Assembly (NCBI GenBank): GCA_021773355.1
Contig: JAJFKE010000026.1
Span: forward strand, 114,358-178,357
Direction of reading: 5' to 3'
DNA length: 64,000 nucleotides
Origin: Gammaproteobacteria bacterium
GTDB lineage: Bacteria > Pseudomonadota > Gammaproteobacteria > Pseudomonadales > Pseudohongiellaceae
In this document: one piece after another, positions 44,321-49,660 of the stretch
Position numbering within the stretch: position 1 is the first letter of the stretch
Layout: each line of letters starts with the position of its first letter
Program-made: the position numbers and the translations under genes
Notes under the pieces: model-generated
What the model was told of the DNA's origin: nothing
The model's database searches: none
Seen by the model: the letters and a program-made list of their open reading frames with translations, nothing else

Positions 44321-46777
44321 CTAATTTGTATTGAACAACACGTTGTAAGGACTCACTCCACCTCTATCTACTACCAGATGTTGATAAGCGGCTTGCGGGC
44401 CGGAACTGCGTACGAAATTGCTGCTACCCAATGATTTAACATCGGCGCGGTATCGTCCATGCAGGTATTGGCTAAGCTCTATTGCCGTCACTTCGCCGTT
44501 CTCATCTCGATCCGCATAGCCCTCACGAATCGCCTCATCGAAAAATACCGAGAGATAGCCTCCGGCCTGGAATTTAAAAGCCACCTGTGAAGTTACATCT
44601 TCTTCCGAAGAAAACAGACCCATGCGTCCCGGCTCCGAGATAATGTCTTTGGAAAATCCACCGCTAAAACAAGAATCCATTACCAATAGTATTTTCCCGG
44701 CGTTGCTGTTTCTTAGCAGTTCGGCCAGCTCATCATCCAGCATGGGGCCGTCGTACAACTCCATGGTTTCATCCATGCCATCGGGATCGCTACTATTGGG
44801 TCCTGTTGTTCGTGGCACCCGGTCACCATGCCCGGAATAGAAAATAACCAGGGTGCCTTCTGCACCTATGTTCGCAGTTATAGTGTTGAGTGCAGCTCGG
44901 AAACTGCTATTTGTGGCGTCAGAATTTATTAAGGTATAAGCGTTGTTCGGGTTCATGCCAGCCCCCTCGATTAGCGCATCTCTTGCTCGAATGGCGTCCT
45001 GGTCAGTTAGTTCGAGATCATTTTCAGAGCCGGGATAATCGGCTATTCCGACGAATATTCCGTAGATTTGTTCCCCGCTGATAGTAGTAGCTGCATCTAA
45101 TCTGCTTGCGCTGTCATCTCCAGACCGGATTGCCAATTGATAGGCACCGGTTTCGCCGCTGCTATAGGAGGATACGATGATGCGATATCGACCGGATTCT
45201 TGCAGGTTTAGCTGTAGCAGAGACTGATCGGTGCTGCCGTCATAATCGTCATTTTCGATTACATCTCCACCAGGAGTCTGAAGTCTCAGATAAGTATCAA
45301 AATCCGCAGCGCTTAAATCTATGACGATATTATCGCCGCTGCTGGCATTGAAACTATAGCTGTCTTGAAATTGCTGCTCGCTGGATAGGGCGTCGTTGGA
45401 ATCCAGGCTACCGGGCCAGGTATCGCCTATCTCTAAACTTACATTATTGTTACGCGCAGCAAGCTGATTTTGCTGTTGACCAAGCTCATCTATGCGTAAT
45501 CGGTACTCGCCAGTTTCGCCGCCAGCGAAAGAGGTAACGATAAGCTCGTAGGTCCCGGCATCGGACAGCAGAGTTTCTATGCGACTGTTGCTATTGTCAT
45601 AATCGTCGTTTATCTGTTGCTCGCCATTAGGCTGGCGCAGAATGAGATAGGTATCAAAATCATCGGAACTTAGATCCAAGATGACAGACTGACCAGGACG
45701 ACCTTCGAATTCATAACTGTCGTAATATTCACCACTACTGAAGGCAGTATCTTCATCGAGCAATACGCCGCTAATTTGTTGGTTGATCGATTTTAGCGGT
45801 CTATCGTCGGTGGAAATTGCCAGCGTGTAACCGCCACTTTCTCCCGCGCTGAAGCTAGTCACCAACACTTCATAAATGCCGGTTTCAGTTCTCGGGATGG
45901 AAATCAATGAACGATCAAAACTGGATTCATAGTCGTCGTTGCTGATTTCTTCGCCATTGGGTGAGCGCACTATAAGATAAGTATCAAAATCCCCGGAGCG
46001 CAGATCGACCAGGCTTGAATCACCGCGGTCTGCAATAAAAGTGTAGCTGTCGGTGTAACTGCCATTACTTCTGGTGTCGTCCCCGAGGCGCAGACTTCCT
46101 CGCTCAAATCTCCCGCCAAGAATGAGGCTGGAGCCCGGTAGTATTCGTATTGAATCTTCTTGATATAGTTCGCGACAGTCTTGTGCATCGTGAAACATGT
46201 CTAAATCGAGTAATAAAGCGGACATGCCTCTACCGGCAAAGCGAGGATCATCACACTGACCATCGTGAGCCCAGATACTGCTGTTGTCTCCAAAATCTAC
46301 GCCGGCATTGCTGCTTACCTCGGAACTTTCTAATAAATAGATGGAACCGGCGATAAATAGAGTTCGACAATCGCTGGCATCGTGCAGGCGGTCTGCATCT
46401 ACTAGAGGTGAAGCCATGCCCGCTCCGGCGAAGCGGGGGTCATCACACGCCTGATCATTTGCCCAGGTACTGTCGTCATCGCCAAAATCTATAGGCTCAG
46501 TGGTAACTGTCACTGAATTAGCTGCCAGGGATATGGACCCTGCTATGAATAAGTTGCGGCAGTCTGTTGCATCGTGCAGAGTATCGCTATCGAGTAGGGA
46601 AGCAGCCATTCCTACTCCGACGAAGCGGGGGTCGTCACATTCCTGATCGTTCGCCCAGGGACTTTCATCATCGCCAAAATCGACGGTGGCCAAACTCGAT
46701 TGAGCGAGCGATGGTTGAAACCAGATTGCAAAAGTGAGAGTAATTAGAAGGGCGAGTGTGTGGGTGCCGGTATGCAT
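44321..46777 (-). CDS. Secreted caspase-like (C14) protein with triple 64-residue repeat and three PPC domains
   Basis: 818 residues with a signal peptide (residues 1-25). Residues 33-213 hold three tandem repeats of exactly 64 residues, each with DFGDDxSxWANDxxCDDPRF, a GMAxxLLDxDxLHDAxDC part and GSI; each has two cysteines. Residues about 225-325, 340-430 and 455-552 are three PPC (pre-peptidase C-terminal) beta domains, each with DFDTYL and NDDYD. Residues about 570-780 are a peptidase C14 domain with catalytic His650 in FYSGHGDR and Cys703 in MDSCFSGG. An EF-hand-like loop (Asp756-Glu767, DRDENGEVTAIE) suggests calcium dependence, as in metacaspases. It is convergent with the M14 peptidase. 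Function is unknown; the combination is unusual. Confidence 0.87.
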   Translation of the reverse strand: MHTGTHTLALLITLTFAIWFQPSLAQSSLATVDFGDDESPWANDQECDDPRFVGVGMAASLLDSDTLHDATDCRNLFIAGSISLAANSVTVTTEPIDFGDDDSTWANDQACDDPRFAGAGMASPLVDADRLHDASDCRTLFIAGSIYLLESSEVSSNAGVDFGDNSSIWAHDGQCDDPRFAGRGMSALLLDLDMFHDAQDCRELYQEDSIRILPGSSLILGGRFERGSLRLGDDTRSNGSYTDSYTFIADRGDSSLVDLRSGDFDTYLIVRSPNGEEISNDDYESSFDRSLISIPRTETGIYEVLVTSFSAGESGGYTLAISTDDRPLKSINQQISGVLLDEDTAFSSGEYYDSYEFEGRPGQSVILDLSSDDFDTYLILRQPNGEQQINDDYDNSNSRIETLLSDAGTYELIVTSFAGGETGEYRLRIDELGQQQNQLAARNNNVSLEIGDTWPGSLDSNDALSSEQQFQDSYSFNASSGDNIVIDLSAADFDTYLRLQTPGGDVIENDDYDGSTDQSLLQLNLQESGRYRIIVSSYSSGETGAYQLAIRSGDDSASRLDAATTISGEQIYGIFVGIADYPGSENDLELTDQDAIRARDALIEGAGMNPNNAYTLINSDATNSSFRAALNTITANIGAEGTLVIFYSGHGDRVPRTTGPNSSDPDGMDETMELYDGPMLDDELAELLRNSNAGKILLVMDSCFSGGFSKDIISEPGRMGLFSSEEDVTSQVAFKFQAGGYLSVFFDEAIREGYADRDENGEVTAIELSQYLHGRYRADVKSLGSSNFVRSSGPQAAYQHLVVDRGGVSPYNVLFNTN

Positions 46778-46831: not shown

Positions 46832-49660
46832 TCACGCCAATACTTTTTTCAAGTAATGACCCGTATAAGAAGCTTTTATTTTAACCACGTCTTCCGGCGT
46901 GCCTTCGGCAATAATATTCCCACCGCCACTGCCACCCTCTGGGCCTAAGTCCACTACCCAGTCGGCGGTCTTAACTACATCGAGATTATGTTCGATAACC
47001 ACGATGGTATTGCCCTGATCGCGAAGATGGTGCAGTACGCTTAAAAGCTGCTTTATATCGTGAAAGTGTAAACCGGTGGTTGGTTCGTCGAGAATATACA
47101 GCGTCTTGCCGGTGTCTCTTTTCGATAACTCCCTGGACAACTTAACGCGCTGTGCTTCACCGCCTGAGAGAGTTGTTGCGGCCTGGCCAAGACAAATATA
47201 GGAAAGACCTACTTCCATTAATGTTTGTAATTTGCGGGCAATTACTGGCACCGGATCAAAAAATTCTCTAGCGTCTTCAATCGTCATATCCAAAACTTCG
47301 CTGATGCTCTTGCCTTTGTATTTCACCTCCAGCGTTTCTCGGTTGTAACGCTTACCACGGCAGACATCACAGGAAACATAAACATCCGGCAGGAAATGCA
47401 TCTCAACTTTCACTACACCATCGCCCTGGCAAGCCTCACATCGGCCACCTTTGACATTGAAGCTAAAACGGCCAGGTTTGTAGCCACGGCTTCGTGATTC
47501 CTGAGTGCCGGCAAACAACTCTCTTACCGGAGTAAAAATACCAGTATAGGTCGCCGGGTTGGACCTGGGTGTTCGACCTATGGGGCTTTGATCGATATCC
47601 ACTACCTTGTCCAATAAATCCAGACCCTCAACCTCCTCGTAGGGAGCCGGATTGAGTGTTGTGGCTTTATTCAACTTGGTGGCAGTGATGGGATATAGCG
47701 TATTATTGATGAGTGTAGACTTGCCCGAACCGGATACACCGGTAACGCAGGTAAACAAACCCAGGGGAATTGCTAGATTCACTTGTTGTAAATTATTTCC
47801 ACTGGCGCCCTTCAGAATAAGTAATTTCTTATCATTATAGGCAATACGCTTTTTCGGAATTTCTATTTTCTCGGCGCCAGATAAGTAGCGACCAGTGAGT
47901 GATCTTTTAGACTTCTTGATATCGGCAATCAAGCCTTCGGCAACAATTTCTCCACCATGGACACCGGCGCCAGGTCCGATATCGATAATATGGTCTGCGC
48001 TGCAAATAGCTTCCTCATCGTGTTCTACTACGATCACGGTATTACCCAAGTCGCGTAAGTGAAACAGGGTGTTCAGCAATCGGCTGTTGTCTCTTTGGTG
48101 TAATCCAATTGAGGGCTCATCGAGAATATACATAACCCCCACCAGACCCGCACCAATCTGACTGGCGAGACGTATGCGCTGTGCTTCACCACCGGAGAGG
48201 GTGTCCGCGCTGCGACTTAGAGTAAGATAATTCAGCCCTACATCTATTAGGAATTTCAGACGGTCCTGCAGCTCTTTCAGAATCTTTTCAGCAATCTTGG
48301 CACGGGTGCCGGAAAGTTTAAGTTTATTGAAATATTCAGCGGACTGCGCCACGGTCATTTCGGTGATGCTGGGTAGATTCTTACCCTTTACCAATACATA
48401 GCGGGCATCTCGTTTCAGGCGGGTACCGCTACAATCAGGACAGGACTGTGAACTTAAATACTTCCCCAGTTCCTCCCTGACATGGTTTGACTCGGTTTCC
48501 CGATAGCGACGCTCCATATTCGGCAATATACCCTCGAATGGATAACTGCGGGTCACCGTGTCACCGCGATCATTAACATAATGAAAATCAATGACTTCCT
48601 TACCACTACCTCTAAGGATGAAATTTTTCTGCTTCTTGGAAAGTTTCTTAAACGGCGTTTCGACGGTAAAGCCATAGTGAGAGGCTAAGGAGGTGAGCAT
48701 CTGGAAATAGTAGATATTGCGTCTATCCCAACCTCGTATAGCACCCTCGGCAAGTGCCAGGGACTCATCGGTGATGATGCGGCTCTCATCGAAAAATTGT
48801 TTTAAACCCAAGCCATCACAGGTTCCACAGGCGCCGGCTGGATTATTGAATGAAAAAAGCCGCGGTTCCAATTCTGAAATACTGTGGCCGCATTGCGGAC
48901 AGGCAAATAGTGAGGAGAACACCAAATCTTCTTCTTTCTCCGTACTATCGGTGATGCTCACCACCGCCAGCCCATCTGCCAGTTGAATAGCGGTCTCGAA
49001 GCTTTCCGCCAGTCTTTGCTCCAGTCCCGGCTTGATTTTCAGTCGGTCGATCACCACATCGATAGAATGTTTCTTGTTCTTCTCCAATTCCGGTGGGTAT
49101 TCGATTTCACATACCAGACCATCTACCCTGGCGCGAATAAATCCACTGCTGCTTAATTCACTGAATACATGAAGGTGTTCACCCTTACGTTCCCGAATTA
49201 TGGGCGCCAGTATCATAATGCGGCTGTCCTGGGGCAATGCCATGACTTTGTCCACCATTTGACTGACAGTCTGCGCTTGCAGCTTGATATTGTGGTCAGG
49301 GCAATGGGGTTCCCCAACCCTTGCGAACAACAAGCGTAAATAGTCATAGATTTCAGTAATGGTGCCCACGGTTGAACGCGGGTTGTGGGAGGTGGATTTC
49401 TGCTCGATTGAAATTGCCGGTGACAGGCCTTCGATGTGGTCGATATCGGGTTTCTCCATCATGGAGAGGAACTGTCTGGCATAGGTAGACAGTGATTCGA
49501 CGTAGCGGCGTTGACCCTCGGCATAGAGAGTATCGAAGGCTAAGGAGGATTTGCCTGAACCAGATAGGCCGGTGATCACAACCAACTTGTCGCGCGGAAT
49601 AGTGAGATTAATATTCTTTAGATTATGGGTGCGTGCACCCCTTACAACAATCTGATCCAT
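46832..49660 (-). CDS. uvrA: Excinuclease ABC subunit A
   Basis: 942 residues, the normal length. It has two ATPase halves with Walker [10 protein letters not shown] and GVSGSGKST, signatures [16 protein letters not shown] and [15 protein letters not shown], zinc motifs CPQCGHS-CGTCDG and [17 protein letters not shown], and the DNA-damage-recognition insert. It recognises lesions together with UvrB in nucleotide excision repair. It is divergent from ssb, the classical arrangement in gammaproteobacteria. A CTG-N10-CAG sequence at 49671-49686 is only a weak LexA-box candidate. Confidence 0.97.

Follow-up and report, generated by a model that had tools for sequence, protein, structure and literature searches.

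Caspase homologues of bacteria are usually treated as enzymes of cell death or signalling. The locus studied here encodes a caspase-like protein with an apparent signal peptide and, ahead of its catalytic domain, a triple repeat and three PPC domains, and it raises the question of what a metacaspase-like protease might do outside the cytoplasm and what the repeats contribute. The gene lies in a stretch of 64,000 nucleotides, hereafter the window, from a host whose lineage is gammaproteobacterial by its named relatives. Caspase-homologue genes are rare in Gammaproteobacteria according to a Baltic Sea survey (PMC4933709). We put at slightly better than even the chance that the product is an exported, Ca2+-dependent, Arg/Lys-specific metacaspase-like protease whose repeat units and PPC domains form an attachment arm, the unit itself being portable.

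Architecture of the gene and its product

The metacaspase-like gene occupies positions 44321..46777 of the minus strand and encodes 818 residues, as defined by its open reading frame and by Pfam matches to PPC and C14. A sequence-only reading of this DNA had listed a triple repeat, three PPC domains, a C14 domain with His650 and Cys703 and a loop at residues 756-767, and all of these were found in the 818-residue frame. The protein starts with a probable Sec signal peptide (residues 1-26, 46700..46777, minus strand), a hydrophobic stretch followed by SLAQ that was recognised by eye and that has similar counterparts at the N-termini of relatives. As read by eye, this start supports the earlier proposal of a secreted protein, and export to an extracytoplasmic location, either the periplasm or the outside, is predicted together with its route.

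Three repeat units, here called CDDPRF units, follow on the same strand: unit 1 (residues 31-94, 46496..46687), unit 2 (residues 95-158, 46304..46495) and unit 3 (residues 159-222, 46112..46303). Their WAND, WAND and WAHD motifs start at residues 41, 105 and 169, and each unit contains two cysteines (C47 and C73, C111 and C137, C175 and C201, respectively), a further cysteine being C703. Next come three PPC beta-sandwiches, whose bounds are approximate and were drawn from PF04151 and from the strands of the model: residues ~223-325 (45803..46111), ~331-432 (45482..45787) and ~450-552 (45122..45430, with the best Pfam stretch at 472-537), all on the minus strand. The three PPC stretches matched PF04151 with an E of 1.1e-16 and 61.9 bits (cut-off 25.9). 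The C14 metacaspase-like catalytic domain covers residues 571-818 (44324..45067, minus strand), as judged by a Pfam match at 575-711, PDB sequence matches and Foldseek. The genome has a single C14 match, which falls in this gene, as do all three of its repeat matches.

An AlphaFold2 model of the full-length protein reached a mean pLDDT of 64 and a pTM of 0.33, too weak for reading the p10 part, the EF-hand-like loop or the arrangement of the domains. Its pLDDT fell below 50 at residues 724-745 and 756-818, and the p10 part was poorly modelled.

The CDDPRF unit and its distribution

The three blocks of 64 residues share 105 pairwise identities out of 192, whereas 5,000 shuffled versions averaged 14.4 (sd 3.6) and never exceeded 30. 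At the DNA level, copies of 149 nt are spaced exactly 192 nt apart, with identities to the reference copy of 63% and 74%. The strict 64-residue period that had been noted from the sequence holds in the window gene and in close relatives, whereas in other proteins the spacing varies. We aligned first 24 units and later 48 of 60 distinct X-free units; over these 48, the residues G5, C17, D18, D19, R21, F22, G24, D39, D42 and C43 (unit numbering) are invariant. Modelled alone by AlphaFold2 from this alignment, unit 2 (62 residues) gave a pLDDT of 90.3 and a pTM of 0.76; the model has one helix, spanning 40-49, and two short strands (22-24 and 52-54).

No known domain was recognised in this unit. 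The 24 units gave no credible match in Pfam (best E 0.026, in one member) and none in NCBIfam, and the units had no match among PDB sequences. Foldseek returned 0 matches to the single-unit model in the PDB at E<=10 and, among the viral models of BFVD, 6 matches with none below E 5.4. Since Foldseek performs poorly with chains this short, the absence of structural matches is a lead towards a new fold and not proof of one. In the open-licence literature, no description of the repeat motif strings was found, and the string CDDPRF occurs only in two papers that, by title and abstract, deal with other subjects. Within the limits of Pfam, NCBIfam and the PDB, the CDDPRF repeat is an undescribed domain; it had also been unfamiliar to the earlier reader.

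The unit contains an NDGxCD ... DxxDC pattern which, by eye, recalls the Notch LNR modules. Notch LNR modules have six cysteines. Could the repeat then be a bacterial calcium module of this known superfamily? Apart from the short resemblance seen by eye, the comparisons speak against it: hhalign gave probabilities of 2.6% (two-Cys units) and 3.4% (four-Cys units, described below) against four Notch LNR units, Pfam Notch had 0 matches among the 24 units, the Foldseek search of the PDB was empty at E<=10, and the units carry two or four cysteines, not six. Homology to Notch LNR (PF00066) finds no support in the profile comparison, and we regard membership of the superfamily as most improbable.

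To what extent is the unit tied to caspases? It was found in 11 of 398 sampled genomes of the same phylum, the own genome included and counting one doubtful match (G390, E 1.6e-4); in 11 of 390 sampled genomes of the same order, again with the own genome; and in 10 of 385 genomes of the class of G321, some of them through a weaker four-Cys form only. These samples overlap, and two related profiles were used. Judging by the named loci L002-L026, the phylum is probably Pseudomonadota and the class of G321 probably Alphaproteobacteria. Most of the other unit proteins that were examined are either composed of repeats only or combine a PPC-like domain with one or two units. The repeat-only proteins contain as many as nine units and, judged by eye, begin like proteins with a signal peptide or like lipoproteins. 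The PPC-like domain of the non-caspase proteins stayed below the Pfam cut-off wherever it was scanned.

The four-Cys form, C.WANDGECDEPGIGTG.C..GTD..DC, occurs in arrays of secreted proteins and before trypsins in other genomes of the same phylum (L053, L129, L130, L137). It shares the CD and DxxDC core of the window unit and differs from it in having 4 cysteines within ~34 residues instead of 2 within ~55. Profiles of the two forms were aligned by hhalign with probabilities of 98.0% (5 units) and 97.4% (40 units, 34 after filtering), and the four-Cys form had no credible match in Pfam. In L053 and L129, four-Cys units are joined to Trypsin. In L128, a PPC-like domain (below the Pfam cut-off) is combined with two two-Cys units and a Trypsin_2 domain (E 1.8e-27).

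These proteins do not bear out the earlier treatment of the repeat as a caspase feature, most of those examined having no recognised caspase and some having a trypsin domain instead. Because the unit occurs in repeat-only proteins, because its aligned four-Cys form precedes trypsins and because L128 combines PPC-like domain, units and trypsin, we regard it as a portable module, most likely an accessory of secreted proteins whose partners include at least a caspase and trypsin-like proteases. As most CDDPRF proteins examined carry no recognised enzyme, a protease role is not general for the unit.

Searches for a mobile origin gave nothing to support one. The repeat region of the window had no match in plasmids and phages, the repeat protein of L022 had none in plasmids, and the 18 pattern matches in viral contigs included no relative of the repeat; origin from a mobile element or phage was therefore rejected.

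A few unit proteins have unusual layouts. In L036, L037, L048 and L049 (genomes G309 and G323), proteins of ~650 residues carry three repeat matches, one of them weaker, separated by a very long linker rich in Asp, Glu and Ala. The protein of L061 (genome G594) consists almost wholly of nine CDDPRF units. L137 and L143 (genome G913) are arrays of at least eight four-Cys units, and L137 has no Pfam match.

Catalytic residues and candidate calcium sites

The catalytic domain matched Peptidase_C14 with an E of 8.5e-9 and 35.9 bits (curated cut-off 21.4). In NCBIfam, the model NF047832 (caspase, EACC1-associated) scored 39.2 bits, under its curated cut-off of 140. The nearest PDB sequences are GSU0716, AtMC4, AtMC9 and Yca1. 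In a Foldseek search with the full-length model, GSU0716 ranked eighth with a TMt of 0.50 and a Ca2+-bound metacaspase of C. glabrata had a TMt of 0.48, with poorly superposed matches above and between these entries (rmsd 16-32 for the first seven); GSU0716 and metacaspases were among the significant matches. The window protein has in common with orthocaspases (GSU0716, PDB 3bij) and with the metacaspases AtMC4 and Yca1 the dyad, the acidic S1 residues and similarity of fold; unlike them, it has a signal-peptide-like start, three PPC domains, CDDPRF units and an EF-hand-like loop.

The dyad consists of His650 in SGHG (44828..44830, minus strand) and Cys703 in DSCFSG (44669..44671, minus strand). 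Both residues are conserved in 16/16 aligned rows, as are S648, D669, D681, D701 and D711, so that no loss of the His/Cys pair among relatives was seen. D594 is present in the 15 rows with letters at this position (15/15), and D682 in 15/16, the remaining row having N. Row and locus counts do not equal numbers of independent genes, since L009 and L018 on one side and L015 and L017 on the other are pieces of one assembly each, and the 16 rows include pieces of one gene; L006 and L016 (unknown residues) and L018 and L020 (fragments) were excluded from the caspase alignment. A relative outside the 16 rows, L085, keeps SGHG and DACFSG. Past the active site, residues 716-736 are invariant in all 16 rows, and L085 differs at two positions.

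In TbMCA2, the S1 residues are C92, D95, S156 and D211 and the Ca2+ residues D173, D189, D190 and D220, and both sites are conserved in Yca1 (PMC4357240). In our alignment with Yca1, D594 falls on ND, D669 on MDD, D681/D682 on DDE and D701 on DSC. From this alignment and the residue spacing, the S1 positions of the window protein are T591 (at the position of C92), D594, S648 and D701. Three of the four metacaspase Ca2+ residues are present as the aligned D669, D681 and D682, and D711 lies one residue off TbMCA2 D220. As the S1 and Ca2+ residues are conserved, Arg/Lys preference and Ca2+ dependence are expected. A pocket formed by D594, S648 and D701 would prefer Arg or Lys, and the putative metacaspase site of D669, D681, D682 and perhaps D711 would make activity require Ca2+.

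The sequence-only reading had placed the calcium switch elsewhere, in the EF-hand-like loop at residues 756-767 (44477..44512, minus strand). This loop, DRDENGEVTAIE, compared with the EF-hand loop consensus, is a canonical 12-residue EF-hand loop and is kept in relatives: D756, D758 and E767 are each present in 15/15 rows with letters there, and comparable loops occur in L019 (DSDQDGSLNAIE), L013 (DQDQNSEVTAIE) and L085 (DVDENGELTAIE). The full-length model places helices at 741-751 and 768-781 on both sides of it. However, pLDDT stays below 50 over both the loop and the second helix, and among 34 other dyad-bearing C14 proteins only 1 had a comparable loop, in a survey of 35 loci made up of the best-scoring matches listed and a few weak relatives and thus biased towards LDACR types with top scores. 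Calcium is, moreover, more simply accounted for by the metacaspase Asp site. We therefore consider the loop unlikely to be the main switch. The calcium dependence proposed earlier stands as a prediction, with its source more likely in D669/D681/D682 than in an EF-hand-like loop that the model renders with low confidence.

Possible role, gene neighbourhood and history

How might these parts work together? With a metacaspase Ca2+ site making activity Ca2+-requiring, the protease would be off in the low-Ca2+ cytoplasm and on after export. In each unit, a single predicted disulfide between C17 and C43 would draw the invariant D18, D19, D39 and D42 together, and the clustered Asp residues would form a probable metal site. 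The units and the PPC sandwiches, which resemble collagen-binding domains, would then act together as a multivalent arm, keeping the protease attached to a surface or to its substrate. The resemblance is to the s3a-s3b collagen-binding domains of ColG (PDB 5iku), with a phmmer E of 1.7e-4 and a Foldseek E of 5.8e-9, the ColG entry being one of the first seven Foldseek matches, which superpose badly (rmsd 16-32). The window PPC domains precede a C14 domain, unlike the placement in ColG. A more specific form of this proposal is tentative: that the unit is an unnamed attachment module with a small fold of its own, stabilised by disulfide and Asp residues and binding metal, which was joined independently to exported proteases of the unrelated C14 and S1 clans, and that the result here is a metacaspase held at a surface, switched by calcium and active only outside the cytoplasm.

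The repeats could instead be an inhibitory or folding prodomain that keeps the caspase inactive until it is cleaved, and not an attachment arm. The units are indeed N-terminal, self-inhibition through an N-terminal region is described for several clan CD peptidases (PMC4357240), and two residues close to the active-site Cys that are invariant in 16/16 rows, R718 and K710, are possible self-cleavage sites. Yet the number of units varies from 1 to 5 in relatives, the unit is found alone and with trypsins, and three PPC domains stand between the units and the caspase. A prodomain function is, in our judgement, doubtful, and the attachment arm remains the preferred reading.

Extracellular metacaspases have been predicted before. 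In PMC3501461, 30 of 671 sequences are classed as extracellular, and a role at the cell surface or towards neighbouring cells is suggested; the terms 'ppc', 'pre-peptidase' and 'secreted' are absent from its main text as searched. No paper on a metacaspase with a pre-peptidase domain, or on Peptidase_C14 with PF04151, was found in the open-licence literature. What is new here is the unit-bearing version and the undescribed repeat domain. An exported caspase with an attachment arm, if true, would make an outside role directly testable, be it surface proteolysis, matrix turnover or action on neighbours. Description of the unit, which is compact, has invariant Cys and Asp residues and is confidently modelled, would provide an annotation for a group of secreted proteins that includes proteases.

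A quite different role was suggested by the neighbouring gene, uvrA (46832..49660, minus strand; named by eye from the sequence), which lies upstream across a gap of 54 bp. Upstream sequence of more than 3 kb is available for 14 caspase loci. In 12 of them (L002-L008, L010-L012, L017 and L018) uvrA is the immediate upstream neighbour in the same orientation, and it does not adjoin the caspase gene in L013 and L019. The gap is shorter in several relatives, and no terminator-like site was found in it on the minus strand, so that joint transcription of uvrA and the caspase gene is possible. One could therefore imagine a DNA-damage-linked factor, an exported executioner induced by the SOS response. 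Linkage, short gaps and the terminator search would fit, but the window contains no E. coli-type LexA box at up to 3 mismatches, a loose CTG-N10-CAG between ssb and uvrA was found in only 1 of 9 relatives besides one in the window, two loci lack uvrA next door, and adjacency may reflect simple inheritance. With loose matches only and no consensus box, SOS control through LexA was rejected, and we judge a damage-linked executioner very unlikely. On the other side of the gene, L003, L009 and L011 have ~3 kb between the caspase and an otherwise adjacent downstream peptidase-like gene.

The caspase gene is patchy: of 37 genomes of the same genus that were searched, several of them incomplete, 8 have it, the own genome included. 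Relatives with a covered repeat region have three units (L002-L005, L007, L008, L017 and L018), two in the available frame (L012) or five (L006). L010, L011, L013 and L014 have an extra N-terminal domain with one recognised unit, and L016 an extra domain with two. This extra domain resembles, by eye, the proteins of the same order that combine a PPC-like domain with a unit, and these are a plausible source of a fusion. In a quick tree of the units, in which support values were not considered, the last units of the arrays cluster across genomes together with the single units of L010 and L011 and with unit 2 of L016, and both units 1 and 2 of the window fall among first-position units. This clustering suggests that the array may have grown by duplication from one unit adjoining the PPC domains.

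Two relatives show local irregularities. In L006 (L006:5890-8793), units 3 and 4 hardly differ, as a result of either recent duplication or an assembly effect. In L019 (L019:5782-6570), a frame of 263 aa fuses the N-terminal region of a DNA photolyase (PF00875, E 2.3e-18) with the 3' portion of the caspase gene, either through joining during assembly or because the genome is truly rearranged.
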